Shown here: positions 32,475 through 61,803 of the stretch, one piece after another
How positions within the stretch are numbered: the stretch's first letter is position 1
Layout of the letters: every line of letters starts with the position of its first letter
Assembly: GCF_026151205.1 (NCBI RefSeq)
Contig: NC_087081.1
Location: 8,799,246 to 8,863,245 of the forward strand
Source: Bolinopsis microptera
Taxonomy: Eukaryota > Ctenophora > Tentaculata > Lobata > Bolinopsidae
Direction: 5' to 3'
DNA length: 64,000 bases
Notes under the pieces: generated by a model
Databases searched by the model: none
What the model was told of the DNA's origin: nothing
Seen by the model: only the letters and a program-made list of their open reading frames with translations
Position numbers and translations under genes: made by a program

Positions 32475-35400
32475 ATGGCTGAAGATGGAGATGAACTACC
32501 GCAACCAAAGCTCAATGTATCGGGGTTGATCGGGCTCATCGTATTTTACCTCATCATCTTCGCTGCTGGGATACTTTCCCACAAGTGAGTGTTGTTATTA
32601 CTTAGTGTTGCTTTTCGTAATTCTGTTTTTTTTTCTTTGCACTTTTCCCTGAAATTTGTAGCTATGACAAAATATTCGTGAGACAAAAAATCTTTGATTA
32701 GTTTATAATAATACTAGTGCCCTTAACGTGGATATCAAATTAAATACATTGATGAAGTTTGCACACATTCCATTTCCAGTCTTGGGATTTCAATATATAT
32801 CGGCCACAAGTTACCTGGAAATTTATCGGACACAGCTGATCCCTATGAAAATAGAAAGGTGGAGCACTAGCAATTGATATCAGGCGATTTGAAGTTTTGC
32901 GAGTTGCTAGAACATACGATAATATTGTATCACAATCATATCAGGAGGGAACTTAATTGCATACTCAGGATCAGTCTGTGATTAGTGCAAATATCAAAGA
33001 TCAGTAACTTTGGGTTAATAATCTGTAATCTCGTCCCCGATAGTATTACCTCACAATATAATATTCACATAAAGCACCTGCATACAGGAGAGTATCACAA
33101 TCTTATTAAGTGTGCATTATGCATTATGCAACCATGAGCTGCTGGTCTTCTCTGCATTCGCATTTTCTACATTGACCAAGATAAAAACGTTCTTCAAGCT
33201 CCCCATATATGTATTTGAACTTTTCATTTAGGATTATTATTAAAGGAAATTCTTAATATTACAGAGCCAGGGTGTGGACTCATTGCTTAATATTTTTTCC
33301 CAAGAGTGCTGAAAAGGAAATCAAGGAAGCAAAAACAGAAGGAACAAGTTGAATCTAACGCCGAGGACATGATGTTGGCTGGCAGAGACATCAACTATTT
33401 TGTTGGTATTTTCACAATGACTGCCACTTGGGTCGGTGGTGGTTACATCAACGGTAAGTTGAACGTTGAATGGGTGTCCCACTTATCACCAAGTCAGCAA
33501 GAAAAATTTTTGTCATAGAGTTAATTCTGTTTTCGGTATTGTCAACATGCATGCTGTTGAACCATGCTATTTTGTAGCATGTAAAGATATCAAGGATCCT
33601 TCACTGGGAGACTTTGGGACCGGAAACTGATCCGGCCCCCAAAGAGGGGTCAGATCACGTCACCAATTAGTGACGTATAATTAGTGATGTGATCCATGGA
33701 TTGAATTTAATTGACATAGAAATGGGCTAGATCTGGGGTAGAGTTCACATGTCAATTCTGTAAATCATAGCTGTACATTAAGAAGTAAACATGATCTGAC
33801 TGCTCGACTCGTAGATCACATAAGGGACGGGAGCTCTTGCTAAAGGGGGGTTCTCGTATCAAGGGATGTGAGACGTACGTGTCAAAGGCATGCAAGGGGA
33901 GTGAACCGATCTAGTGTTCTAGGTATAAATATTGGGTGATAGAAGGTAGTAGTATCGCATTCTATCAACAGTCATGCCTACCTTCTCCAAGTTCCTCAAC
34001 GGTTTCAGAGGATGTCAACATGTGCTTGATTCTGACGGATATATCTACAGCAGCAAGAAATATGATGACACCGTCCTCTCCTCTGCTTGGCGTTGCCAGA
34101 AGAACAAATCCCTTTGATGGGAAGACTGACCGAGATGTGAGAATCATAGCCTTCGCCACCAACAGGAACCCACAGCCAGAAACCATAGCAGACTAGCAGA
34201 TAATCTGCAAGGAAATTTTCGATTTCGGAGGAAATTTTTGTTGCCAACGAGGAAATTTCAAAAGTTTACGATATTAATTTGAAAAATTTGGATACGAAGT
34301 TTATTGTTTACTGCGGCAAACATATCTTCAATTCCTGTCTGTGGCCTGTGCGAAAGTTTATGCACTCTACATTTCTCAGGATATGGTTGCCTCAACTCTG
34401 CAAGGCACATATAATAATTTGTGATAACGGGCCACAGAAAACAGAAAATTTGTATCTGCGAGGACATTTTTAGCTTTCTGGATGTGGGAACAGGAACCTT
34501 CACACTCCCGCAGAACACAACAATTGGATTGCCGACGGGACATTTTATGTCGCTCCAAAGATATTTCCCCAAAGTTACACCATACATTCGGTTTAATTTG
34601 TAGCTTCTATGTACAGAGTTGTCATATGAACTCTACCCCAGATCTAGCCCATTTCTAGGTCAATTATATTCAATCCATGCAATATCCATATATGTAATAT
34701 GTACAAATATTTTATAATATATTGTATATAAGTATATATACATTAGCAATTCATGCCAAAAATAAGAAAATACACGTTTAACATCCAAAAAGCAGTGCGC
34801 GATAGAATTTAAAAAATCAAAAAGTAGATAAGGTCATGATTCTGTGCTGTTTTGTAAAGGTGTATTGTGACTCTAAAAACATCAATTATTCAGGAACCAC
34901 GGAGTCTGTCATCAAGAATGGATTAGTTTGGACGCAGGCCCCCATTGGCTACTCGATCTCTCTGTTTCTGGGTGGAATATTGTTTGCTGAGAAAATGAGG
35001 ACGATGTCTTTCGTAACGATGCTGGACCCGCTCCAAATTAAGTACGGGAAGCCACTTGGAGCACTCTTCTACATCCCTGCCTTCTCCGGAGAGGTAACTA
35101 CTAATTTGTTCCAGGGAGCTGATAGGTATTATGGAACTCTCAGTATTAAACTTTTAGGAAACACTCTCAGTATATAGATGAGCTAACTAAAACTTGACTA
35201 AGAGCCAAGGTTGCACAGAAATGTTAAACTTTTAGGACACTCTCACTCTCAGTATATATAATATGAGCAAACTTGGCTCAGAGCCAAGGAAATGTTGACC
35301 CCTGCCAGTTCAGCTGAACCTTTCGAAAAACGTTGAATATTTCAGATCCTTTGGTCTGCCTCAATCCTTGCTGCTTTGGGAACATCTCTTCGAGTGATCT

Positions 35401-39143: not shown

Positions 39144-39221
39144 AGAAGATTGGTTACATGAGCTTGCCGGATGTATATCTCAATTACGTAGCTTAGTGTT
39201 CAACTAACTTATAATTGTCGC

Positions 39222-39862
39222 TGTGGGCCTGCCACTGTGGGCCTACCGCTGTGCGCCTGCTGCTGTGCGCCTGCTGCTGTGCGCCTGCTGCTGTGCGCCT
39301 GCTGCTGTGGGCCTGCTGCTGTGGGCCTGCTGCTGTGGGCCTGCTGCTGTGGGCCTGCTGCTGTGGGCCTGCTGCTGTGGGCCTGCTGCTGTGGGCCTGC
39401 TGCTGTGGGCCTGCTGCTGTGGGCCTGCTGCTGTGGGCCTGCTGCTGTGGGCCTGCTGCTGTGGGCCTGCTGCTGTGGGCCTGCTGCTGTGGGCCTGCCA
39501 CTGTGGGCCTGCTGCTGTGGGCCTGCTGCTGTGGGCCTGCTGCTGTGGGCCTGCTGCTGTGGGCCTGCTGCTGTGGGCCTGCTGCTGTGGGCCTGCTGCT
39601 GTGGGCCTGCCACTGTGGGCCTGCTGCTGTGGGCCTGCTGCTGTGGGCCTGCTGCTGTGGGCCTGCTGCTGTGGGCCTGCTGCTGTGGGCCTGCTGCTGT
39701 GGGCCTGCTGCTGTGGGCCTGCTGCTGTGGGCCTGCTGCTGTGGGCCTGCTGCTGTGGGCCTGCTGCTGTGGGCCTGCTGCTGTGGGCCTGCTGCTGTGG
39801 GCCTGCTGCTGTGGGCCTGCTGCTGTGGGCCTGCTGCTGTGGGCCTGCTGCTGTGGGCCTGC
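39222..39862. repeat. 14-bp minisatellite, ~46 units
   Basis: Unit GGGCCTGCTGCTGT, nearly uniform, with a variant at the 5' end (GCGCCTG) and three CCACTGT units. Because 14 is not a multiple of 3 and the unit and its complement lack stops, five frames stay open for over 200 codons. This is a property of the repeat, not evidence of a gene. It starts about 80 bp after the poly(A) signal. Confidence 0.95.
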
Positions 39863-42201: not shown

Positions 42202-45200
42202 ATGTACCGAAGTTTGGGGTTGCTATCCTTGATCCTGGTCTCCGTCGTGTCACTAAGATGTGACTACAAGGGTTACAAGGATGTCACGGACCGGCCTGTC
42301 GAATCTATGGAGTGGTTTAATACACTTTCTGAATCCTGGTAAATTATTCATCATCACTCGTTAATCTGCCAACTAATCCTGGTAAATTATTCATCATCAC
42401 TCGTTAATCTACCAACTAATCCTGGTAAATTATTCATCATCACTCGTTAATCTGCCAACTAATCCTGGTAAATTATTCATCATCACTCGTTAATCTGCCA
42501 ACTAATCCTGGTAAATTATTCATCATCACTCGTTAATCTGCCAACTAATCCTGGTAAATTATTCATCATCACTCGTTAATCTGCCAACTAATCCTGGTAA
42601 ATTATTCATCATCACTTGTTAATCTGCCAACTAATCCTGGTAAATTATTCATCATCACTCGTTAATCTGCCAACTAATCCTGGTAAATTATTCATCATCA
42701 CTCGTTAATCTGCCAACTAATCCTGGTAAATTATTCATCATCACTCGTTAATCTTCCAACTAATCCTGGTAAATTATTCATCATCACTCGTTAATCTGCC
42801 AACTAATCCTGGTAAATTATTCATCATCACTCGTTAATCTGCCAACTAATCCTGGTAAATTATTCATCATCACTCGTTAATCTGCCAACTAATCCTGGTA
42901 AATTATTCATCATCACTCGTTAATCTGCCAACTAATCCTGGTAAATTATTCATCATCACTTGTTAATCTGCCAACTAATCCTGGTAAATTATTCATCATC
43001 ACTCGTTAATCTGCCAACTAATCCTGGTAAATTATTCATCATCACTCGTTAATCTGCCAATTAATCCTGGTAAATTATTCATCATCACTCGTTAATCTGC
43101 CAACTAATCCTAGTAAATTATTCATCATCACTCGTTAATCTGCCAACTAATCCTGGTAAATTATTCATCATCACTCGTTAATCTGCCAACTAATCCTGGT
43201 ATATTATTCATCATCACTCGTTAATCTGCCAACTAATCCTGGTAAATTATTCATCATCACTCGTTAATCTGCCAACTAATCCTGGTAAATTATTCATCAT
43301 CACTCGTTAATCTGCCAACTAATCCTGGTAAATTATTCATCATCACTCGTTAATCTGCCAACTAATCCTGGTAAATTATTCATCATCACTCGTTAATCTG
43401 CCAACTAATCCTGGTAAATTATTCATCATCACTCGTTAATCTACCAACTAATCCTGGTAAATTATTCATCATCACTCGTTAATCTGCCAACTAATCCTGG
43501 TAAATTATTCATCATCACTCGTTAATCTGCCAACTAATCCTGGTATATTATTCATCATCACTCGTTAATCTGCCAACTAATCCTGGTAAATTATTCATCA
43601 TCACTCGTTAATCTGCCAACTAATCCTGGTAAATTATTCATCATCACTCGTTAATCTGCCAACTAATCCTGGTAAATTATTCATCATCACTCGTTAATCT
43701 ACCAACTAATCCTGGTAAATTATTCATCATCACTCGTTAATCTGCCAACTAATCCTGGTAAATTATTCATCATCACTCGTTAATCTGCCAACTAATCCTG
43801 GTAAATTATTCATCATCACTCGTTAATCTGCCAACTAATCCTGGTAAATTATTCATCATCACTCGTTAATCTTCCAACTAATCCTGGTAAATTATTCATC
43901 ATCACTCGTTAATCTGCCAACTAATCCTGGTAAATTATTCATCATCACTCGTTAATCTGCCAACTAATCCTGGTAAATTATTCATCATCACTCGTTAATC
44001 TACCAACTAATCCTGGTAAATTATTCATCATCACTCGTTAATCTGCCAACTAATCCTGGTAAATTATTCATCATCACTCGTTAATCTACCAACTAATCCT
44101 GGTAAATTATTCATCATCACTCGTTAATCTGCTAACTAATCCTGGTAAATTATTCATCATCACTCGTTAATCTACCAACTAATCCTGGTAAATTATTCAT
44201 CATCACTCGTTAATCTGCCAACTAATCCTGGTAAATTATTCATCATCACTCGTTAATCTGCCAATTAATCCTGGTAAATTATTCATCATCACTCGTTAAT
44301 CTGCCAACTAATCCTAGTAAATTATTCATCATCACTCGTTAATCTGCCAACTAATCCTGGTAAATTATTCATCATCACTCGTTAATCTGCCAACTAATCC
44401 TGCTAAATTATTCATCATCACTCGTTAATCTGCCAACTAATCCTGGTAAATTATTCATCATCACTCGTTAATCTGCCAACTAATCCTGGTAAATTATTCA
44501 TCATCACTCGTTAATCTGCCAACTAATCCTGGTAAATTATTCATCATCACTCGTTAATCTGCCAACTAATCCTGGTAAATTATTCATCATCACTCGTTAA
44601 TCTGCCAACTAATCCTGGTAAATTATTCATCATCACTCGTTAATCTGCCAACTAATCCTGGTAAATTATTCATCATCACTCGTTAATCTGCCAACTAATC
44701 CTGGTAAATTATTCATCATCACTCGTTAATCTGCCAACTAATCCTGGTAAATTATTCATCATCACTCGTTAATCTGCCAACTAATCCTGGTAAATTATTC
44801 ATCATCACTCGTTAATCTACCAACTAATCCTGGTAAATTATTCATCATCACTCGTTAATCTACCAACTAATCCTGGTAAATTATTCATCATCACTCGTTA
44901 ATCTGCCAACTAATCCTGGTAAATTATTCATCATCACTCGTTAATCTGCCAACTAATCCTGGTAAATTATTCATCATCACTCGTTAATCTGCCAACTAAT
45001 CCTGGTAAATTATTCATCATCACTCGTTAATCTACCAACTAATCCTGGTAAATTATTCATCATCACTCGTTAATCTGCCAACTAATCCTGGTAAATTATT
45101 CATCATCACTCGTTAATCTGCCAACTAATCCTGGTAAATTATTCATCATTACTCGTTAATCTGCCAACTAATCCTGGTAAATTATTCATCATCACTCGTT

Positions 45201-48200
45201 AATCTACCAACTAATCCTGGTAAATTATTCATCATCATTCGTTAATCTACCAATTAATCCTGGTAAATTATTCATCATCACTCGTTAATCTACCAACTAA
45301 TCCTGGTAAATTATTCATCATCACTCGTTAATCTGCCAACTAATCCTGGTAAATTTTTCATCATCACTCGTTAATCTGCCAACTAATCCTGGTAAATTAT
45401 TCATCATCACTCGTTAATCTGCCAACTAATCCTGGTAAATTATTCATCATCACTCGTTAATCTGCCAACTAATCCTGGTAAATTATTCATCATCACTCGT
45501 TAATCTACCAATTAATCCTGGTAAATTATCGATCATCACTCGTTAATCTGCCAACTAATCCTGGTAAATTATTCATCATCACTCGTTAATCTGCCAATTA
45601 ATCCTGGTAAATTATTCATCATCACTCGTTAATCTGCCAACTAATCCTGGTAAATTATTCATCATCACTCGTTAATCTGCCAACTAATCCTGGTAAATTA
45701 TTCATCATCACTCGTTAATCTGCCAACTAATCCTGGTATATTATTCATCATCACTCGTTAATCTGCCAACTAATCCTGGTAAATTATTCATCATCACTCG
45801 TTAATCTGCCAACTAATCCTGGTAAATTATTCATCATCACTCGTTAATCTGCCAATTAATCCTGGTAAATTATTCATCATCACTCGTTAATCTGCCAATT
45901 AATCCTGGTAAATTATTCATCATCAGTCGTTAATCTACCAACTAATCCTGGTAAATTATTCATCATCACTCGTTAATCTACCAACTAATCCTGGTAAATT
46001 ATTCATCATCACTCGTTAATCTGCCAACTAATCCTGGTAAATTATTCATCATCACTCGTTAATCTGCCAACTAATCCTGGTAAATTATTCATCATCACTC
46101 GTTAATCTACCAATTAATCCTGGTAAATTATCTATCATCACTCGTTAATCTGCCAACTAATCCTGGTAAATTATTCATCATCACTCGTTAATCTGCCAAC
46201 TAATCCTGGTAAATTATTCATCATCACTCGTTAATCTGCCAACTAATCCTGGTAAATTATTCATCATCACTCGTTAATCTGCCAATTAATCCTGGTAAAT
46301 TATTCATCATCACTCGTTAATCTACCAACTAATCCTGGTAAATTATTCATCATCATTCGTTAATCTACCAATTAATCCTGGTAAATTATTCATCATCACT
46401 CGTTAATCTACCAACTAATCCTGGTAAATTATTCATCATCACTCGTTAATCTGCCAACTAATCCTGGTAAATTATTCATCATCACTCGTTAATCTGCCAA
46501 CTAATCCTGGTAAATTATTCATCATCACTCGTTAATCTGCCAACTAATCCTGGTAAATTATTCATCATCACTCGTTAATCTACCAACTAATCCTGGTAAA
46601 TTATCTATCATCACTCGTTAATCTGCCAACTAATCCTGGTAAATTATTCATCATCACTCGATAATCTGCCAATTAATCCTGGTAAATTATTCATCATCAC
46701 TCGTTAATCTGCCAACTAATCCTGGTAAATTATTCATCATCACTCGTTAATCTGCCAACTTATCCTGGTAAATTATTCATCATCACTCGTTAATCTACCA
46801 ATTAATCCTGGTAAATTATCGATCATCACTCGTTAATCTGCCAACTAATCCTGGTAAATTATTCATCATCACTCGTTAATCTGCCAATTAATCCTGGTAA
46901 ATTATTCATCATCACTCGTTAATCTGCCAACTGATCCTGGTAAATTATTCATCATCACTCGTTAATCTGCCAACTAATCCTGGTAAATTATTCATCATCA
47001 CTTGTTAATCTGCCAACTAATCCTGGTAAATTATTCATCATCACTCGTTAATCTGCCAACTAATCCTGGTAAATTATTCATCATCACTCGTTAATCTGCC
47101 AACTAATCCTGGTAAATTATTCATCATCACTCGTTAATCTGCCAACTAATCCTGGTAAATTATTCATCATCACTCGTTAATCTGTCAATTAATCCTGGTA
47201 AATTATTCATCATCACTCGTTAATCTACCAACTAATCCTGGTAAATTATTCATCATCACTCGTTAATCTACCAATTAATCCTGGTAAATTATTCATCATC
47301 ACTCGTTAATCTGCCAACTAATCCTGGTAAATTATTCATCATCACTCGTTAATCTGCCAACTAATCCTGGTAAATTATTCATCATCACTCGTTAATCTGC
47401 CAACTAATCCTGGTAAATTATTCATCATCACTCGTTAATCTGCCAACTAATCCTGGTAAATTATTCATCATCAATCGTTAATCTGCCAACTAATCCTGGT
47501 AAATTATTCATCATCACTCGTTAATCTGCCAACTAATCCTGGTAAATTATTCATCATCACTCGTTAATCTGCCAACTAATCCTGGTAAATTATTCATCAT
47601 CACTCGTTAATCTGCCAACTAATCCTGGTAAATTATTCATCATCACTCGTTAATCTGTCAATTAATCCTGGTAAATTATTCATCATCACTCGTTAATCTA
47701 CCAACTAATCCTGGTAAATTATTCATCATCACTCGTTAATCTACCAATTATTCCTGGTAAATTATTCATCATCACTCGTTAATCTGCCAACTAATCCTGG
47801 TAAATTATTCATCATCACTCGTTAATCTGCCAACTAATCCTGGTAAATTATTCATCATCACTCGTTAATCTGCCAACTAATCCTGGTAAATTATTCATCA
47901 TCACTCGTTAATCTGCCAACTAATCCTGGTAAATTATTCATCATCAATCGTTAATCTACCAATTAATCCTGGTAAATTATCTATCATCACTCGTTAATCT
48001 GCCAACTAATCCTGGTAAATTATTCATCATCACTCGTTAATCTGCCAATTAATCCTGGTAAATTATTCATCATCACTCGTTAATCTGCCAATTAATCCTG
48101 GTAAATTATTCATCATCACTCGTTAATCTGCCAACTAATCCTGGTAAATTATTCATCATCACTCGTTAATCTACCAATTAATCCTGGTAAATTATCTATC

Positions 48201-51200
48201 ATCACTCGTTAATCTGCCAACTAATCCTGGTAAATTATTCATCATCACTCGTTAATCTGCCAATTAATCCTGGTAAATTATTCATCATCACTCGTTAATC
48301 TACCAATTAATCCTGGTAAATTATTCATCATCACTCGTTAATCTACCAACTAATCCTGGTAAATTATTCATCATCACTCGTTAATCTGCCAATTAATCCT
48401 GGTAAATTATTCATCATCACTCGTTAATCTACCAATTAATCCTGGTAAATTATTCATCATCACTCGTTAATCTACCAACTAATCCTGGTAAATTATTCAT
48501 CAACACTCGTTAATCTACCAGCCAACTCTGGAAGATCTGATATTGATGAGGCTAACAGAGTAACAGAGATTTCTGATATTGATGATACTAATACTACTAG
48601 TAAGAGCCAAATCTTATAGAGGTCATCCGGTCAAAAATAATCACGACAGTGACAACACGATATAGTATATACAGTGACATATCATTATCAACACATTACA
48701 ACAATACAACAGACAAGATGAGCAGGTACCAAACCAACAAACGGGGGCTGTTCAACATGGTGAAGGAATCAGTAAACGTGAAGTTGGTGTCCGGGTTACC
48801 GGACTGGATCCTATCTCTGGAGCTGGAGAGGTTAGAGTTTTCGGAGGGCACCGTCCCAGCCATCACTAGAGTTAGAACTGACCAGGTATTCAAATATGTG
48901 GAATAATTGAATTTTTTTGTTTTTGTATGCTGTAAAGCTCCAAATTGGGCTTTGAGGGCTACATTGTCATATAGGGAGAAATCAAATAAATTAATATCAA
49001 ATTCAAAAAGAAAATTTATATGAAACAAATATAAATTTGAGAACCGCGATGGTTTCACGTGCCAAATACGATTTTTAGAACACACCTACTTAACGGTCTC
49101 GTGTTACAGGATATGGTAAGATGTCTGAATGAGGTTAACCAAGAGGTGAAGCTGCGGCGTGTTACCTTCGACATGAACATTCTTCTACACAGCAAGGGAT
49201 CTATCGCTCTCCTCGCCATCAAGGTGAGTTTAACATCATAAACCTCACATTATAAACCTCACATTATAAACCTCACATTATAAACCTCACATTATAAACC
49301 TCACATTATAAACCTCACATTATAAACCTCACATTATAAACCTCACATTATAAACCTCACATTATAAACCTCACATTATAAACCTCACATTATAAACCTC
49401 ACATTATAAACCTCACATTATAAACCTCACATTATAAACCTCACATTATAAACCTGCAGCATTAATCATAATTTTCTGCATGCACATTTGATTCCGAATG
49501 AAGACTATAACTTGACGAATTGTTTAGGTTATTAGCTGGGCCAGTCAGAAAAATTTGGCGCGATCTTCAAGTCACTTCCTGTTTGTGAAACAGACCCTCT
49601 AGTAAAATGGGACTCATTCTGTCAGGCTGTCACCCCGACACTCCGCCATATCTTCGAGTGTGTTTATAAACACTGAGATCCCCAGGTAAGTGGATATTTA
49701 CCAAGTAATTTTAAATCAACATTTGCAGCTACTTCTCGGTGTAAGTGGACAGTTGTCTCTCAATGGAGTGACTCTTATGGCCCAAGCAAGACTAGAAATC
49801 CTGATGAACACTAAACAAGAATTCCCTGGTCTTGTCAGTGCTACTTTCTCTTTCACTGAGAGGTTACTTTGTCTTTCACTGAGAGGTTTTGTTTCGTTGT
49901 CAATAAATCCTTGATAGAATACGAATAATCATCATCTTAAGTTATATGACCAATATAATAAATCAACATTCTGCATTCCCAAAACCATTAACAAACAAAA
50001 TGAATGGAAAACGATCAAGTTTAAATTGATCGAGCTTCAGCTTGTTCATCTTACAGTTTGAGTTACACATTTACAGTTACCTTGACACAAGCCTTGTTCA
50101 GGCCGCATTTTGCTTGCAATGTGGACATGTACAATCTGATCGGGCTTGACACGTTTGGTATTGACAAATGGGTAAACGAAAAAGTTGAAGATATAATACA
50201 GCAGCGTGAGATTTACAATAATTTTTTTTACAATAAGTTTTAATGATCTTAAAATGTAGAATTTAAAATCTCGTCATTCTGATGTGGAAACAAAATGATT
50301 TGGTATCGGGTTATGGGATTTGATAAATTGAGTTCGGCTAATCAGCATAACATAATTAGTGGCAGCATCCGGCAGTATGGAAGGAAGATGCCAGCTGTAC
50401 TAATTATCTTAAAACGATATTTCGAGTTCAACTTTAATCATTTCCAGAACTGGTTTACCCTGGAATGTTGTTTATGGATCTAACAGGTCTATCTACCGGA
50501 CAAGCTGTTCAGACATCTCTTCTTAGCGGCATACACGGCGGTGAGTTTTGTTCCTATTTGTTGTTTTATTTTATTTGTTGTTGTTACTTTAACTTATTGA
50601 GATATAATTTGCATTTCCGAAGTCAGTTTTCAAGTTCGACGCATGATAACTATAAAGCTATACCCTGCCTCATTCTTAAACTTCTTTGTAGACTAATGAT
50701 GATTATAACACTACTTATTGTGAGGTTTTTGCTGGGGTTTAATGATCATATTTTCTCAGATTTCAAAGAGTGGCCCGCAGCTTATTCAGTAGCTGTAAAA
50801 ATCAGCCCTGCAGATGATAACACGAACGGTTAAGTTTTTTAATATTCTGAAACTGTTTCGTTTTTTAGTGTTAACAATGTTTATGTTTTGATCAGTTTAT
50901 CACTATAAGCAATCGGGATCTTGCATTTAATCCTCCACAGTTAACAATAATAATAATAATAATAATATTTATTATATTTATTTGTATAATTTGTGATTGT
51001 TTCTCCCGGTTTTCTTCCCTTGCGTAGCAAGCCCTGTCTCTTGTAAAAACAACCTCGAAAGATTTGTAGATACACATAGTCTCTACACCTTTACCCTCTG
51101 GTCCCTAGGGTCAGCTGATCCCGGGCCAGAGGAAAACTACCGACTGCCAAGGTTTGACGCCTAGGCAGTCGAGACCTCTTATTGAGACCCTTTATAATAA

Positions 51201-54200: not shown

Positions 54201-57200
54201 AAAAAGAATATGAAGAGAATGACCAATGACTTATTGTCTGTTTTGAAATTCACAAATAATCTTCCGCCCAAAATTGGTGTTATCCGTTGCAAGTTAAAAC
54301 TTTCGTATTCGTTTCTGCTTCGGAAACAATGATCAAGCCATGGAAGCGATCATTAGTCATTTGTATCAAAGCGACAACTTCACATAACATGAACTTTCGT
54401 CTGAAATCTGAAGTATAGCTCAGTGTTTCTATTTGAAACGTAATAACGTATATAATCTTATAATCATACTTTGACATCATTTCTTTTTTCAGCGTATTTG
54501 TTACCAGCAGCAGTTATTAAACAAACAGGCGTAGAAGTGGTCCACTATCCGACTTTCGCTTCAGAGGCAACTTGTAACGAAGGTAACTTCAAGCTATACA
54601 TACATTCACGATTCATCTTATCACAATTCAGCAATTTCATGATTATTTTTGATACTTCTTACAACTTTACAAAATGATGTTTGAATTTGATTATCATCAT
54701 ATTATTATATAGGTATAAACAAACATCAGCTTCGTCGCGGTTTTTGTCTACACATCATATCAAGGTGACTAACAACACCTCCCTCCCTAGACTGCCCCCA
54801 GCTAGGAGTACTGTGTGTGCAGGTGACTAACAACTTAACAACACCTCCCTCCCTAGACTGACCCCAGCTAGGAGTACTGTATGTGTAGGTGACTAACAAC
54901 ACCTCCCTCCCTAGACTGCCCCCAGATAGGAGTACTGTATGTGCAGGTGACTAACAACACCTCCCTCCCTAGACTGCCCCCAGCTAGGAGTACTGCATGT
55001 GTAGGTGACTAACAACACCTCCCTCCCTAGACTGCCCCCAGCTAGGAGTACTGTATGTGCAGGTGACTAACAACACCTCCCTCCCTAGACTGCCCCCAGC
55101 TAGGAGTACTGTATGTGTAGGTGACTAACAACACCTCCCTCCATAGACTGCCCCCAGCTAGGAGTACTGTATGTGTAGGTGACTAACAACACCTCCCTCC
55201 CTAGACTGCCCCCAGCTAGGAGTACTGTATGTGTAGGTGACTAACAACACCTCCCTCCCTAGACTGCCCCCAGCTAGGAGTACTGTATGTGTAGGTGACT
55301 AACAACACCTCCCTCCCTAGACTGCCCCCAGCTAGGAGTACTGTATGTGCAGGTGACTAACAACACCTCCTTCCCTACACTGCCCCCAGCTAGGAGTACT
55401 GTATGTGTAGGTGACTAACAACACCTCCCTCCCTAGACTGCCCCCAGCTAGGAGTACTGTATGTGTAGGTGACTAACAACACCTCCCTCCCTAGACTGCC
55501 CCCAGCTAGGAGTACTGTATGTGTAGGTGACTAACAACACCTCCCTTCCTAGACTGCCCCCAGCTAGGAGTACTGTATGTGCAGGTGACTAACAACACCT
55601 CCCTCCCTAGACTGCCCCCAGCTAGGAGTACTGTATGTGCAGGTGACTAACAACACCTCCCTCCCTAGACTGCCCCCAGCTAGGAGTACTGTATGTGTAG
55701 GTGACTAACAACACCTCCCTCCCTAGACTGCCCCCAGCTAGGAGTACTGTATGTGTAGGTGACTAACAACACCTCCCTCCCTAGACTGCCCCCAGCTAGG
55801 AGTACTGTATGTGTAGGTGACTAACAACACCTCCCTCCCTAGACTGCCCCCAGCTAGGAGTACTGTATGTGTAGGTGACTAACAACACCTCCCTCCCTAG
55901 ACTGCCCCCAGCTAGGAGTACTGAATGTGTAGGTGACTAACAACACCTCCCTCCCTAGACTGCCCCCAGTTAGGAGTACTGTATGTGTATGTGACTAACA
56001 ACACCTCCCTCCCTAGACTGCCCCCAGCTAGGAGTACTGTATGTGTAGGTGACTAACAACACCTCCCTCCCTAGACTGCCCCCAGCTAGGAGTACTGTAT
56101 GTGTAGGTGACTAACAACACCTCCCTCCCTAGACTGCCCCCAGCTAGGAGTACTGTATGTGCAGGTGACTAACAACACCTTCCTCCCTAGACTGCCCCCA
56201 GCTAGAAGTACTGTATGTGTAGGTGACTAACAACACCTCCCTTCCTAGACTGCCCCCAGCTAGGAGTACTGTATGTGCAGGTGACTAACAACACCTCCCT
56301 CCCTAGACTGCCCCCAGCTAGGAGTACTGTATGTGCAGGTGACTAACAACACCTCCCTCCCTAGACTGCCCCCAGCTAGGAGTACTGTATGTGTAGGTGA
56401 CTAACAACACCTCCCTCCCTAGACTGCCCCCAGCTAGGAGTACTGTATGTGTAGGTGACTAACAACACCTCCCTCCCTAGACTGCCCCCAGCTAGGAGTA
56501 CTGTGTGTGCAGGTGACTAACAACACCTCCCTCCCTAGACTGACCCCAGCTAGGAGTACTGTATGTGTAGGTGACTAACAACACCTCCCTCCCTAGACTG
56601 CCCCCAGCTAGGAGTACTGTATGTGCAGGTGACTAACAACACCTCCCTCCCTAGACTGCCCCCAGCTAGGAGTACTGTATGTGTAGGTGACTAACAACAC
56701 CTCCCTCCATAGACTGCCCCCAGCTAGGAGTACTGTATGTGTAGGTGACTAACAACACCTCCCTCCCTAGACTGCCCCCAGCTAGGAGTACTGTATGTGT
56801 AGGTGACTAACAACACCTCCCTCCCTAGACTGCCCCCAGCTAGGAGTACTGTATGTGTAGGTGACTAACAACACCTCCCTCCCTAGACTGCCCCCAGCTA
56901 GGAGTACTGTATGTGCAGGTGACTAACAACACCTCCTTCCCTACACTGCCCCCAGCTAGGAGTACTGTATGTGTAGGTGACTAACAACACCTCCCTCCCT
57001 AGACTGCCCCCAGCTAGGAGTACTGTATGTGTAGGTGACTAACAACACCTCCCTCCCTAGACTGCCCCCAGCTAGGAGTACTGTATGTGCAGGTGACTAA
57101 CAACACCTTCCTCCCTAGACTGCCCCCAGCTAGAAGTACTGTATGTGTAGGTGACTAACAACACCTCCCTTCCTAGACTGCCCCCAGCTAGGAGTACTGT

Positions 57201-60200
57201 ATGTGCAGGTGACTAACAACACCTCCCTCCCTAGACTGCCCCCAGCTAGGAGTACTGTATGTGCAGGTGACTAACAACACCTCCCTCCCTAGACTGCCCC
57301 CAGCTAGGAGTACTGTATGTGTAGGTGACTAACAACACCTCCCTCCCTAGACTGCCCCCAGCTAGGAGTACTGTATGTGTAGGTGACTAACAACACCTCC
57401 CTCCCTAGACTGCCCCCAGCTAGGAGTACTGTATGTGTAGGTGACTAACAACACCTCCCTCCCTAGACTGCCCCCAGCTAGGAGTACTGTATGTGTAGGT
57501 GACTAACAACACCTCCCTCCCTAGACTGCCCCCAGCTAGGAGTACTGAATGTGTAGGTGACTAACAACACCTCCCTCCCTAGACTGCCCCCAGTTAGGAG
57601 TACTGTATGTGTATGTGACTAACAACACCTCCCTCCCTAGACTGCCCCCAGCTAGGAGTACTGTATGTGTAGGTGACTAACAACACCTCCCTCCCTAGAC
57701 TGCCCCCAGCTAGGAGTACTGTATGTGTAGGTGACTAACAACACCTCCCTCCCTAGACTGCCCCCAGCTAGGAGTACTGTATGTGCAGGTGACTAACAAC
57801 ACCTCCCTCCCTAGACTGCCCCCAGCTAGGAGTACTGTATGTGTAGGTGACTAACAACACCTCCCTCCCTAGACTGCCCCCAGCTAGGAGTACTGTATGT
57901 GTAGGTGACTAACAACACCTCCCTCCCTAGACTGCCCCCAGCTAGGAGTACTGTATGTGCAGGTGACTAACAACACCTCCCTCCCTAGACTGCCCCCAGC
58001 TAGGAGTACTGTATGTGTAGGTGACTAACAACACCTCCCTCCCTAGACTGCCCCCAGCTAGGAGTACTGTATGTGTAGGTGACTAACAACACCTCCCTCC
58101 CTAGACTGCCCCCAGCTAGGAGTACTGTATGTGCAGGTGACTAACAACACCTCCCTCCCTAGACTGCCCCCAGCTAGGAGTACTGTATGTGTAGGTGACT
58201 AACAACACCTCCCTCCCTAGACTGCCCCCAGCTAGGAGTACTGTATGTGTAGGTGACTAACAACACCTCCCTCCCTAGACTGCCCCCAGCTAGGAGTACT
58301 GTATGTGCAGGTGACTAACAACACCTCCCTCCCTAGACTGCCCCCAGCTAGGAGTACTGTATGTGTAGGTGACTAACAACACCTCCCTCCCTAGACTGCC
58401 CCCAGCTAGGAGTACTGTATGTGTAGGTGACTAACAACACCTCCCTCCCTAGACTGCCCCCAGCTAGGAGTACTGTATGTGTAGGTGACTAACAACACCT
58501 CCCTCCCTAGACTGCCCCCAGCTAGGAGTACTGTATGTGTAGGTGACTAACAACACCTCCCTCCCTAGACTGCCCCCAGCTAGAAGTACTGAATGTGTAG
58601 GTGACTAACAACACCTCCCTCCCTAGACTGCCCCCAGTTAGGAGTACTGTATGTGTATGTGACTAACAACACCTCCCTCCCTAGACTGCCCCCAGCTAGG
58701 AGTACTGTATGTGTAGGTGACTAACAACACTTCCCTCCCTAGACTGCCCCCAGCTAGGAGTACTGTATGTGCAGGTGACTAACAACACCTTCCTCCCTAG
58801 ACTGCCCCCAGCTAGGAGTACTGTATGTGTAGGTGACTAACAACACCTCCCTCCCTAGACTGCCCCCAGCTAGGAGTACTGTATGTGCAGGTGACTAACA
58901 ACACCTCCCTCCCTAGACTGCCCCCAGCTAGGAGTACTGTAATTAAACGGAATTAAACGGAATTAAAACGGAATTAAACGGAATTAAACGGAATTAAACG
59001 TAAAGTTGTCAGAGATGGCACTAACACCATCGTCTCGACTATACATGAATGAATAACATATCTAGAGTAGGTAAAATTCGAGATTCAAGAATCATGAAAA
59101 TTTAAAACAAAATCACTTAAAATTTAACTCCCGTACAAACAACCGAAATAGAAATAATTGCTGAAATAATAATTTAACAAAAGAGGAAGTAGTAAAAGGC
59201 AACTTCAATGGTCACTAAACTGCGATATTAGTATTCGAGTCCACAAAAGACACATTCATACTCAAACAGTCCTCCCACTCACAGTCACAACGTACTGGAA
59301 ACAGTAATCACTAGTGTTCCATGCTCGTACAACAGATCGTGAAATCTGCATAATGATGGTTGATCTGTATCATGTCTGTTGAGTTGGTAGTCCTGATGGG
59401 GTGACAGGCAGTATTGGCGTCTTTTTCGGGTTCCTGATGCGGTGACAGTTGCAAAGGAATTTGCCCAGTTCTTGCACATGGGCAGAATTCATGATAGCTC
59501 CGTATTCCTTGAGCAGCAAAAGACTCTTAAGGTTTTCCGACAGTGAGAGTCTCGCTGAGTGGTACATTGGACATTCAGTGAGGCAGTGTTCTTCATTTTC
59601 AATGATTGTTCCTTCGAAAAAGGGGAGATATTCTAAGCCTTGAACGTTATCCTTGTTGCAGCAGAATCTGCAGGCTCTCGTCCACGTTCCAGTTTCTTTT
59701 GTGTATCTCCCTCTTTCAATAAGAAGGTCATGGCTACTGGAGCGGATTTTTGCTATGTGCATGCGACATTGACTATTCTTTAGATTGAGATACTACTGTA
59801 TGTGTAGGTGACTAACAACACCTCCCTCCCTAGACTGCCCCCAGCTAGGAGTACTGTATGTGTAGGTGACTAACAACACCTCCCTCCCTAGACTGCCCCC
59901 AGCTAGGAGTACTGTATGTGCAGGTGACTAACAACACCTCCCTCCCTAGACTGCCCCCAGCTAGGAGTACTGTATGTGTAGGTGACTAACAACACCTCCC
60001 TCCCTAGACTGCCCCCAGCTAGGAGTACTGTATGTGTAGGTGACTAACAACACCTCCCTCCCTAGACTGCCCCCAGCTAGGAGTACTGTATGTGCAGGTG
60101 ACTAACAACACCTCCCTCCCTAGACTGCCCCCAGCTAGGAGTACTGTATGTGCAGGTGACTAACAACACCTCCCTCCCTAGACTGCCCCCAGATAGGAGT

Positions 60201-61803
60201 ACTGTATGTGCAGGTGACTAACAACACCTCCCTCCCTAGACTGCCCCCAGCTAGGAGTACTGTATGTGTAGGTGACTAACAACACCTCCCTCCCTAGACT
60301 GCCCCCAGCTAGGAGTACTGTATGTGTAGGTGACTAACAACACCTCCCTCCCTAGACTGCCCCCAGCTAGGAGTACTGTATGTGTAGGTGACTAACAACA
60401 CCTCCCTCCCTAGACTGCCCCCAGCTAGGAGTACTGTATGTGTAGGTGACTAACAACACCTCCCTCCCTAGACTGCCCCCAGCTAGGAGTACTGTATGTG
60501 TAGGTGACTAACAACACCTCCCTCCCTAGACTGCCCCCAGATAGGAGTACTGTATGTGTAGGTGACTAACAACATCTCCCTCCCTAGACTGCCCCCAGCT
60601 AGGAGTACTGTATGTGCAGGTTACTAACAACACCTCCCTCCCTAGACTGCCCCCAGCTAGGAGTACTGTATGTGCACCTCCACAGAGCAGAGGGCATCGC
60701 TCACGAGGACCCTGAGGAGAGTGTTGATCCTAATGTTAGAGTTTATCTGAACAACCAGCAGGTTATTTACTAATTATTAATTTAATGTAATTAATTAATG
60801 TAAGCATATTGTCATGATATCTGTAAATATGGTAAAGTATATGGTGAAAGTTATATGAAGAGGATAACGTTTATAAAACATCCCAAAACGTGTTTCAAAG
60901 CAAAATCTCGAATGTTGATTAAGAAGGGTATATCATCATCAATTATGAAAGAAATTGCTCTATTTTCAATTAGAGGACGTAATAGTTTCTGAATAGTGGA
61001 GATGCTTGTCGTGGAAGTTTTTCTATGTTTGAAAATTAAAAGACTTAATATTTGTATTCCTTGCATAAGGTGTACAAATCAGAGACATATCCTAATTCCG
61101 GTGATCCAATATTCGACGAGAAATTCCAGATACTTGTTCGGACAAAATACTCTACCATTCCAGAAATAGCTGACCAGGTAAATTGCTGAGAGTAAGAAAC
61201 TCTTATTAGCAGTTATTAATAAAAATTGGGAAATTATCGAATACAATTAATAATACATCATAAGGAGTCATGAAGATGATTATGCACTCGACATAGAGGA
61301 CCTGGGACACCACCCTCAGGCAAAGCGATTACTTTTACTTATTTTTCAGACCCTGAGATTTGACGTATCCGACTATGACAAGTTTACAGACGACGACTTT
61401 TTGGGTCAAACTTCTGTCAACCTTTCAACTGTGAGTCGAGCTTAAATTCTTAAAGTGTAATTTGTAAAAGCGACCCAAGCTATATACTAGGATCGTTCGG
61501 CGGTCCACTAAAAGTAACTCGTCTTAAGATTGAAAATAATACAAGATAATGTATTTACCATTTACTCTGCATGCATTTTCCATGAAACAAACTACTTCCC
61601 TCATTTGCATTGCCATTACCATCGACAATAAAGTAGAAAAATTAACAAAAAACAATAACTTGTGGTGACACAACATTTAATTTTATATCCCGCAGGACGT
61701 GGTTGTTAACAAAGGTCTCTACCTACAGAAAAGGGCGTCAAAAGTTGGATACAGTGTCCTGTATGTTTCCATGGTGTTCAAACCAGTACCATTCTATAAA
61801 TAG
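42202..61803 (+). CDS. Extended-synaptotagmin-like SMP + two C2 domain protein, 13 exons
   Basis: Exons: 42202-42338, 48726-48885, 49110-49223, 49729-49862, 50102-50205, 50448-50540, 52530-52647, 52894-53059, 54493-54582, 60646-60761, 61070-61177, 61350-61430, 61696-61803; about 509 aa. A hydrophobic N-terminus (LGLLSLILVSVVSL) could be a signal anchor or signal peptide. Then comes VESMEWFNTL, as at the start of SMP domains, and an SMP-like module through exon 6 (LPDWILSLELERLEF, GVSGQLSLNGVTLMAQARLE). A first C2-like region (exons 6-9) lacks an evident Asp cluster. A second C2 (exons 10-13) keeps VDPNVRV, DPIFDEKF and DVSDYDKFTDDDFLG, so it should bind Ca2+. The family moves lipid at membrane contacts. 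Exon 7 is one base short for the frame (see findings). TMEM24/C2CD2 or tricalbin kinship is also possible. Confidence 0.75.
42339..48525 (+). repeat. 43-bp minisatellite carrying the exon 1 splice donor, ~144 units, fills intron 1
   Basis: The first unit begins at the exon 1/intron 1 junction: exon ATCCTG|GTAAATTATTC, and each unit ends ACTAATCCTG before the next GTAAAT. The last exon bases and the donor are thus copied in every unit. The consensus unit has no AG dinucleotide, so it offers donors but no acceptors. Common variants: CTACCAA for CTGCCAA, CAATTAA for CAACTAA, and TTATCTATC or TTATCGATC for TTATTCATC. Confidence 0.97.
49228..49455 (+). repeat. 14-bp minisatellite at the 5' end of intron 3, ~16 units
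   Basis: Unit ATAAACCTCACATT, starting within 5 bp of the exon 3 donor (GTGAGTTTAAC). Nearly invariant. Confidence 0.95.
49597..49687 (+). mobile_element. Diverged mini-transposon relative in intron 3
   Basis: Keeps TCAGGCTGTCA, CCGCCATAT and GATCCCCAGGTAAG in the order seen in the 37341 copy, but no target duplication is visible. Confidence 0.45.
50945..50967 (+). repeat. (AAT)n microsatellite in intron 6
   Basis: About 7 AAT units; a second shorter run lies near 51195. Confidence 0.9.
51382..52280. mobile_element. 0.9-kb TIR element in intron 6
   Basis: The ends are perfect inverted repeats of about 33 bp starting TACCTTATCGGACCTTATTT, with TA at the borders. Sub-terminal GAACGGACATTA units repeat inside both ends (about 51418-51455 and 52165-52225). 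No transposase frame found. Confidence 0.8.
53581..53970 (-). CDS. Small single-exon membrane protein, nested in intron 8 (unrecognised)
   Basis: 129 aa on the strand opposite to the host gene. Residues 2-28 form a strongly hydrophobic helix (LLVTVVLLFAVVTIGAAVIF) bounded by Glu before and Arg-Lys after, as expected of a single membrane span with the tail in the cytosol. Residues 36-70 are a charged heptad-like segment (EDLEKKVQSYL, DYLEKKIREVERAA) that could form a coiled coil. The C-terminus is polar with ADAATELD and TDAVIQIE. ATG context is AAAATGA. Natural composition, the domain-like layout and lack of repeats support a real gene; it could also be a retrocopy. I do not recognise the family, and no poly(A) signal is obvious downstream. 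Confidence 0.55.
   Translation of the reverse strand: MILEEIILLVTVVLLFAVVTIGAAVIFWTRKGQNYSMIEDLEKKVQSYLESSEYVSLDFSDYLEKKIREVERAAHVKMNPRRIVMADAATELDCNEQADACTQTNLASTQSLPQIIQVKPLTDAVIQIE
54765..58941 (+). repeat. 58-bp minisatellite carrying the exon 10 acceptor, block 1 (~72 units)
   Basis: Each unit reads GTGACTAACAACACC, TCCCTCCCTAG, then ACTGCCCCCAGCTAGG, AGTACTGTATGTG and CAG or TAG before the next GTGACT. GACTAAC matches the UACUAAC branch site in 6 of 7 bases, 18 nt before the acceptor. The bases after the AG equal the start of true exon 10 at 60646. Variants (CCATAG, CTACACTG, CTGAATG, CAGTTAGG, TGTATGTGAC) recur at distances that are whole multiples of 58. Confidence 0.97.
58942..59793 (-). 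mobile_element. 5'-truncated LINE inserted in the 58-bp array
   Basis: Splits the array and is flanked by TACTGTA at 58935-58941 and 59794-59800. On the minus strand, 59762-59370 encodes a non-LTR ORF2 C-terminus: IERGRYTKE, CRFC, then EEHCLTECPMYHSAR, the usual Cys/His module. The element ends in about six AATTAAACGG-type units (58941-59000), a short tandem 3' tail typical of several LINE clades. Confidence 0.75.
59794..60672 (+). repeat. 58-bp minisatellite, block 2 (~15 units), ending in exon 10
   Basis: Same unit as 54765-58941. The last unit merges into exon 10: its acceptor (AG at 60644-60645) is the one that keeps the reading frame, and GTATGTGCAC replaces GTATGTGCAGGTGAC. Confidence 0.97.

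Follow-up and report, generated by a model that had tools for sequence, protein, structure and literature searches.

A minisatellite repeating an intron-exon border in a C2-domain gene of Bolinopsis microptera, with similar arrays in kinesin genes of the same genome

How is an exon joined correctly to its neighbour when the acceptor in front of it has been copied tens of times, mostly letter for letter? And do the copies serve the gene, or is the gene simply able to live with them? These questions are raised by one intron in a 64,000-nucleotide stretch of the Bolinopsis microptera genome, called the window hereafter (C10:8799246-8863245). The intron ends in a long tandem array of 58-bp units, each carrying both the end of the intron and the beginning of the following exon.

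Anatomy of the array and of its host gene

The 87 units, each having at most 6 substitutions relative to the consensus, span positions 54765-60677. Their spacing is 58 bp with two exceptions, 66 bp between 54765 and 54831 and 917 bp across an insert. TRF applied to the window recovered two blocks of 70.8 and 15.2 copies with 97-98% matches, and a unit probe run against the whole assembly (264.65 Mb) gave 86 matches, all inside the array interval. The array is real. The initial annotation, made from the sequence of the window, had described a minisatellite of about 87 units in which a complete 3' splice site is copied together with the exon start, and our count agrees. It had placed a single array at 54765-60672; the array was confirmed, but it is interrupted by the insert at 58942-59793, and the sequence shared by the units ends at 60676. 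The elements of the array are as follows.

54765..58941, plus strand: left array block, 72 units, the last one cut by the insert
54765..54822, plus strand: first unit, with A51G and T56C, a variant that recurs once at 56455; an extra stretch of 8 bp follows the unit
58935..58941, plus strand: left copy of the 7-bp target-site duplication TACTGTA, read from the sequence
58942..59793, minus strand (assigned from the tail): transposable-element copy of about 850 bp (852 bp) with a AATTAAACGG repeat tail
59794..59800, plus strand: right copy of the 7-bp target-site duplication TACTGTA, read from the sequence
59794..60676, plus strand: right array block, 15 units, the last one running into the true exon 10

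Each unit is composed of the final 26 nt of intron 9 followed by 32 nt, about 31 of which correspond to the start of exon 10. The intron part contains GTGACTAAC, a branch-site motif, then a pyrimidine tract and CCCTAG. The junction between two units creates an AG/GTGACT donor (the slash marks the exon-intron border). As a result of this arrangement, 83 exact AG/GTGACT donors are found in or at the edge of the 87 units (57 TAG, 25 CAG and 1 AAG, the latter at the left edge), together with 82 primary acceptors, the true one counted. CTAAC is intact in 86 of the 87 units and the acceptor AG in 85. The units end with TAG in 56 cases, which places an in-frame stop within the unit, and with CAG in 26. 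Most decoys are exact copies, CCCTAGACTG being present 80 times in the window, including at the true site. A G4Hunter score of -1.68 on the plus strand corresponds to G-quadruplex potential on the minus strand.

A 786-bp probe taken from the insert produced at least 42 matches genome-wide, 92-100% identical, with 40 of the 78 candidates scored; these matches include the insert itself and a small number of split copies. Another copy (L035) has its end within one base of the same right-hand point. A Pfam scan of the frame of the insert identified no family. The dispersed copies, the presence of TACTGTA on both flanks and the end shared with L035 lead us to conclude that a transposable element landed in the array.

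Variants carried by the units give access to the growth of the array. The second unit and the last carry variants found in no other unit, and the variant of the first unit is not private. Variant units recur colinearly: the longest block comprises 11 units with 3 rare variants in common at a shift of 28, and two more colinear blocks are observed at shifts of 16 and 27 units. Among 1000 shuffles, a block with 2 rare variants appeared in 45 and a block with 3 rare variants in none. Higher-order repeats were also sought with a fixed shift, with a weak outcome: 3 rare variants were shared at shift 28, and shuffles reached up to 4. Because the colinear blocks go beyond what shuffling yields, the data support a contribution of block duplication, several units at a time, to the growth of the array. 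Once 86 units and the insert are removed, intron 9 is reduced to about 223 nt, an ordinary length for this genome. The distinct variants are so few that the retention of CTAAC in nearly all units says little about selection. The array probably originated when a segment spanning the 3' border of intron 9 was duplicated in tandem, and later growth, partly through duplicated blocks, would have brought it to its present size.

The downstream part of the host gene was modelled as follows.

54493..54582, plus strand: exon 9 (..ATCNE/G), open frame, donor GAAG/GTAACT with a score of 7.4 (25 of 47 donors no higher)
54583..60645, plus strand: intron 9, 6063 nt, from the gene model
60646..60761, plus strand: exon 10 (DCPQLGVLYVHLHRAEG...NNQQ), start of the C2 domain, from the frame; donor CAG/GTTATT with a score of 7.91
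60661..60761, plus strand: exon 10 with the alternative start at CTAG/GAG, in frame, at the acceptor position of the C4 paralogue
61070..61177, plus strand: exon 11, from the frame
61350..61430, plus strand: exon 12, from the frame
61696..61803, plus strand: exon 13 with the stop codon, from the frame

Exons 10-12 encode a C2 domain (Pfam, E=4.8e-18), and two upstream exons gave no family in the Pfam scan. When the last acceptor is used, the frame is open across exons 10-13 up to the stop. In the C4 paralogue of the gene (L010), the corresponding intron is in the same phase, is only 142 nt long and contains no array, a result also obtained with TRF. The acceptor of the paralogue aligns with CTAG/GAG, located 15 nt downstream of 60646, and both acceptors are in frame in the window gene. 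Acceptor 60646 makes the two proteins equally long across the loop and has the higher score (5.73 versus 0.34), which favours it over 60661. A start of exon 10 at 60646, as first annotated, thus appears more likely but is not proven: score and loop length argue for it, and the certainty initially attached to it has to be given up since CTAG/GAG is also in frame.

A C7 relative (L009), 89% identical over 1675 aligned positions and with a broken frame, was considered as a reference for the single-copy junction and rejected. This partial copy starts at 60723, inside exon 10 and past the array, and is therefore uninformative on the junction. TTAGGG-like repeats are found near its breakpoint, and the same locus (G000:C7:16668500-16678400) contains a GGGTCA array of 108 copies. 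Other repeats are visible in the window. A minisatellite of 144 copies of 43 bp (42332-48520) lies immediately upstream of exons of the array-bearing gene, and 46 copies of a 14-bp unit occupy positions 39220-39862. Further upstream, the open frame at 34806-35177 would encode a protein resembling a high-affinity choline transporter.

Splice signals and reading frame of the units

In order to place the unit signals on a scale, a splice matrix was built from 35 introns of five chaperonin genes of the same genome, modelled with a spliced aligner, to which the sites of the window gene and of the C4 gene were added. The set scored comprises 47 donors and 50 acceptors. The intron models were refined using the matrix derived from them, a step that biases them towards consensus sites, and some models are doubtful; in particular, a 1332-nt C2 intron model is probably wrong because the locus was cut short. 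On this scale, the primary unit acceptor has a score of 5.73, with 15 of the 50 real acceptors no higher. A CAG acceptor located 11 nt further on (60657 in exon 10) reaches 4.7 (10 of 50 no higher), and the CTAG/GAG acceptor only 0.34 (4 of 50). For the donors, TAG/GTGACT scores 5.8 and CAG/GTGACT 7.46, values not exceeded by 13 and 27 of the 47 real donors, respectively. Judged by these scores, the splice sites of the units would be ordinary rather than strong, yet real competitors of the true sites.

Intron size restricts how these sites may be paired. The modelled introns measure 106-2399 nt, 33 of the 35 being shorter than 600 nt, and a YTRAY motif is present within the final 60 nt in 24 of them. 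With a minimum of 106 nt, the 26-nt gap between adjacent units is not a credible intron, and the reading of each unit as a 32-nt exon in a 26-nt intron, put forward in the initial annotation, has to be abandoned. The gap across three units, 142 nt, is long enough for an intron.

We then considered what inclusion of units would do to the message. There are 76 possible single-unit exons (32 nt, bounded by a primary acceptor and an AG/GTGACT donor), of which 54 are interrupted by an in-frame stop and 22 are free of one. All 76 lead to a premature stop when spliced to 60646 or 60661, either their own (54) or one reached by shifting the next exon (22). Joined at the CAG acceptor 60657, 22 of the 76 remain open to the true stop. 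Two-unit exons, in which the 26 nt between the units are retained, are 90 nt long and number 73. Of these, 23 are open and 50 are not when joined at 60646 or 60661, and none is open when joined at 60657. A path search also found in-frame routes through the array with the shortest permitted intron set at 26 to 100 nt. Unit inclusion would therefore usually, and not always, be fatal to the frame: the claim that it invariably brings a stop does not hold for the 22 single units and 23 two-unit exons just described. Likewise, a stop in the next copy, as first proposed, applies to 22 of the 76 units, the usual stop being the terminal TAG of the unit itself. Since 90-nt exons and 142-nt gaps have normal exon and intron sizes, some inclusion of units in transcripts is plausible.

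Border arrays in kinesin genes

Similar arrays were searched for in introns of at least about 400 nt from chaperonin, myosin, kinesin, ALDH and P-type ATPase genes. The introns were chosen by eye from exon-match tables, mostly between exons with adjoining profile coordinates, so that the sample is non-random. It amounts to 44 introns. Of these, 42 were taken whole, including two from ATPase genes whose coordinates do not adjoin, and two giant introns were represented by both of their ends. Arrays of at least 8 copies (8-52) crossing an exon border were found in five of the 44, at donors as well as at acceptors. All five belong to kinesin genes, as recognised with the Pfam kinesin model (5 of 23 kinesin introns versus 0 of 21 others).

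L050: 52 copies of 33 bp, donor side, exon end INTSLSELG/GTAAGT, 50 exact donors
L067: 25 copies of 35 bp, donor side, VDWVFQ, CAAGG/GTAAGT, 25 exact donors
L074: 8 copies of 53 bp, donor side, GTGCA/GTAAGT
L061: 29 copies of 49 bp, acceptor side, TTCTCAG/GTTTTCGTTTATAGACCTGGC
L055: 24 copies of 21 bp plus a second block of 15, acceptor side, TTTTCAG/GAGGTAACAG

In a further kinesin locus, L054, the donor border is present in two copies. Conserved kinesin motifs can be read past the arrays if splicing uses the first donor or, on the acceptor side, the last acceptor. We take the exon motifs beside the borders to be such motifs, that of L061 presumably corresponding to the DLAGSER region. Reading on beyond the first donor meets a stop after 8 nt in L050, 1 nt in L067 and 54 nt in L074. 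In every case a sensible mRNA requires the outermost site, that is, the first donor for donor-side arrays and the last acceptor for acceptor-side arrays.

Altogether, the sampled introns contain 23 arrays of at least 5 copies with a period of at least 10. Five of them span a border, against 2.32 expected from uniform seeding over collapsed introns (P of 5 or more, 0.058). Border-spanning arrays thus show no depletion, and an excess is not proven. The lengths of the units reveal no pattern of multiples of three (58, 33, 35, 53, 49, 21, 38). The 35 modelled chaperonin introns include no case of a repeated border. The chaperonin intron of 2399 bp consists mostly of 61 copies of a 30-bp unit (L036:3049-4876; G000:C13:6707800-6713200) in which branch-like CTAAC motifs are accompanied by a pyrimidine tract; this array, which multiplies the branch-site region of the intron, ends 19 bp before the true acceptor.

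Several other observations were made during the survey. L067 and L061 are among kinesin exons distributed over C2:22.50-22.52 Mb, apparently in one gene, which would have both a donor-side and an acceptor-side array. Two arrays begin at a donor or at most about 10 bp away and leave the exon out: L072:93-379 (22 copies of 13 bp) and window positions 49233-49455 (16 copies of 14 bp). The kinesin copies L057 and L058 (C13, 5.07 and 4.98 Mb) have equal Pfam scores; one intron is about 1.05 kb long in one copy, with 11-bp arrays in opposite orientations, versus about 0.1 kb in the other. Finally, an aequorin probe gave 55 matches to photoprotein genes with uninterrupted frames, arranged in tandem about 0.9-1.0 kb apart at G000 C1 ~22.00 Mb, C13 ~11.09 Mb, C5 ~17.02 Mb and C3 ~3.42 Mb. 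One of these genes matches berovin and mnemiopsin in the PDB with E about 1e-121.

Probable splicing past the array and its possible meaning

From the sequence, we consider it probable that the array results from passive repeat growth over an exon edge, tolerated through splicing to the last copy, and that it is not a regulator. The mRNA would stay correct if full-size exons are recognised as units via their own outer splice sites. Exon 10, 116 nt long and having its own donor, would pair with the last acceptor, and what single units supply would amount to no more than pseudo-exons of 32 nt and pseudo-introns of 26 nt. A rule of first donor or last acceptor would also serve the donor-side arrays of the kinesin genes. 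Exon definition predicts use of the outermost sites because only those belong to normal-sized exons. Mis-spliced products, mostly with early stops, could be directed to nonsense-mediated decay, which is possible in this organism since the genome encodes a UPF1 zinc-binding domain (E=1.3e-37).

This explanation leaves some tension. The last acceptor is identical in sequence to the decoys, so position must decide. The decoys, being mostly exact, are not silenced, in line with decoys that do no harm or with an array of recent origin. Exon definition may account for the bypass of the array, but short introns could equally favour intron definition; the introns modelled here are mostly short, and under intron definition the earlier acceptors should compete. 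We also counted against passive growth the 21 sampled introns outside kinesins and the 35 chaperonin introns, none of which has a border array.

The initial annotation had proposed instead that the array tunes expression through decay. In such a scheme, inclusion of poison exons would rise with copy number and transcript decay would set the protein level. The unit signals do fall inside the genome's own score range, every single-unit exon leads to a premature stop at the expected acceptors, and the UPF1 domain is encoded. The open products obtained through 60657 or from two units nevertheless weaken the idea, as does a 26-nt intron far below the shortest one modelled. The C4 paralogue manages with a 142-nt intron and no array, and the arrays of the kinesin exons point to a mutational tendency of this genome. 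Tuning of this gene by decay is thus unsupported and seems to us improbable. Poison exons, which are conserved between relatives and whose inclusion brings a premature stop and decay of the transcript, are a known category. The window units resemble them in that inclusion of one would usually have this effect; they differ in that some inclusions keep the frame, and their use and conservation as exons are hypothetical.

An inflated or collapsed copy number produced by the assembler is quite improbable as well. Near-identical units in tandem make assembly difficult, and excerpts of PMC3087553 mention a globin array of the lancelet that was misassembled in a draft genome. The copy number may accordingly be inexact, and an assembler could in principle duplicate colinear blocks. 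Against an artefact, the window contains no N, variant units form colinear blocks, and a transposable element with its target-site duplication sits within the array. PacBio libraries of more than 70x are reported for B. microptera in the part of PMC10232365 consulted.

We regard it as very unlikely that the array is there to give protein variants, for instance through a 90-nt exon of two units beginning with a CAG unit, which would add 30 residues before the C2 domain. Such an exon would have a normal size, CAG ends 26 of the 87 units, and 23 of the 73 two-unit exons are open and back in frame, but the remaining 50 contain a stop. Intron birth under way, in which units edged by AG and GT turn into new exons and introns, is the least probable reading, with hardly any chance of being correct: most units do bear both types of site, in-frame routes exist, and a model of this kind has been published for lancelet globins (PMC3087553, in excerpt), but the 26-nt gap between adjacent units is too short and most inclusions lead to a stop.

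By its anatomy, the window array is what has been termed a mirage in lancelets. According to excerpts of PMC3087553 and PMC3902484, lancelet mirages are minisatellite-like copies of a 5' or 3' intron-exon border with splice signals in the units. They are described there in the genes for Adh3 and globin (PMC3087553) and for troponin C and PGBD5 (PMC3902484). In the same excerpts, RT-PCR suggests that regular splicing is undisturbed, length instability is reported for the Adh3 mirage, and the globin gene BflGb6 has 6 versus 3 units in two haplotypes (PMC3087553). Mirages are further characterised by length variation among haplotypes or in somatic tissue, and by concerted evolution of the inner units with divergence of those at the boundaries; the colinear blocks of the window array would fit such evolution, and of its edge units the first bears a variant that recurs. 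The window array likewise spans an intron-exon border, with the end of intron 9 and about 31 nt of exon 10, and its units likewise bear splice signals. Because the structure is shared, the initial view of a previously undescribed form cannot be maintained. The differences are the phylum, the copy numbers (8 to 87 in this genome versus 3 or 6 for BflGb6 in the excerpts) and the transposable element inside the window array. Our literature search on ctenophore repeats retrieved no earlier report of such arrays in ctenophores; 13% of the Hormiphora genome is given as repeats found by TRF (PMC8527503, in excerpt). The novelty lies in the phylum, in the copy numbers and in the repeated occurrence of such arrays in a single genome.

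Duplications containing splice signals are also the starting point of the Rogers model, in which introns are gained through tandem duplication of AG/GT (cited in PMC3087553), and of human internal tandem repeats at exon-intron borders, which can form introns (PMC2812944); both sources were seen in excerpt. The window array shares this feature and differs by its 58-bp period, which leaves gaps of 26 nt, below a normal intron. A second comparison is with the classical test genes carrying duplicated splice sites. There, identical sites compete, so that position must decide. The window array differs from these constructs in being natural, in having tens of copies and in residing, like the kinesin arrays, in genes with open frames.

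For annotators, these arrays are a warning that many perfect splice sites within one intron can be decoys. For the study of splicing, they ask whether, sequence being equal, the spliceosome follows position, exon definition or transcription order. One may further speculate that ctenophore genes widely hold splice-site arrays of variable copy number, with a small, length-dependent share of transcripts destroyed, such that output tracks copy number. We think this unlikely. If true, splice-site arrays would act as dials of expression, inherited and quick to mutate, and at the same time provide natural tests of spliceosomal choice among tens of identical sites.
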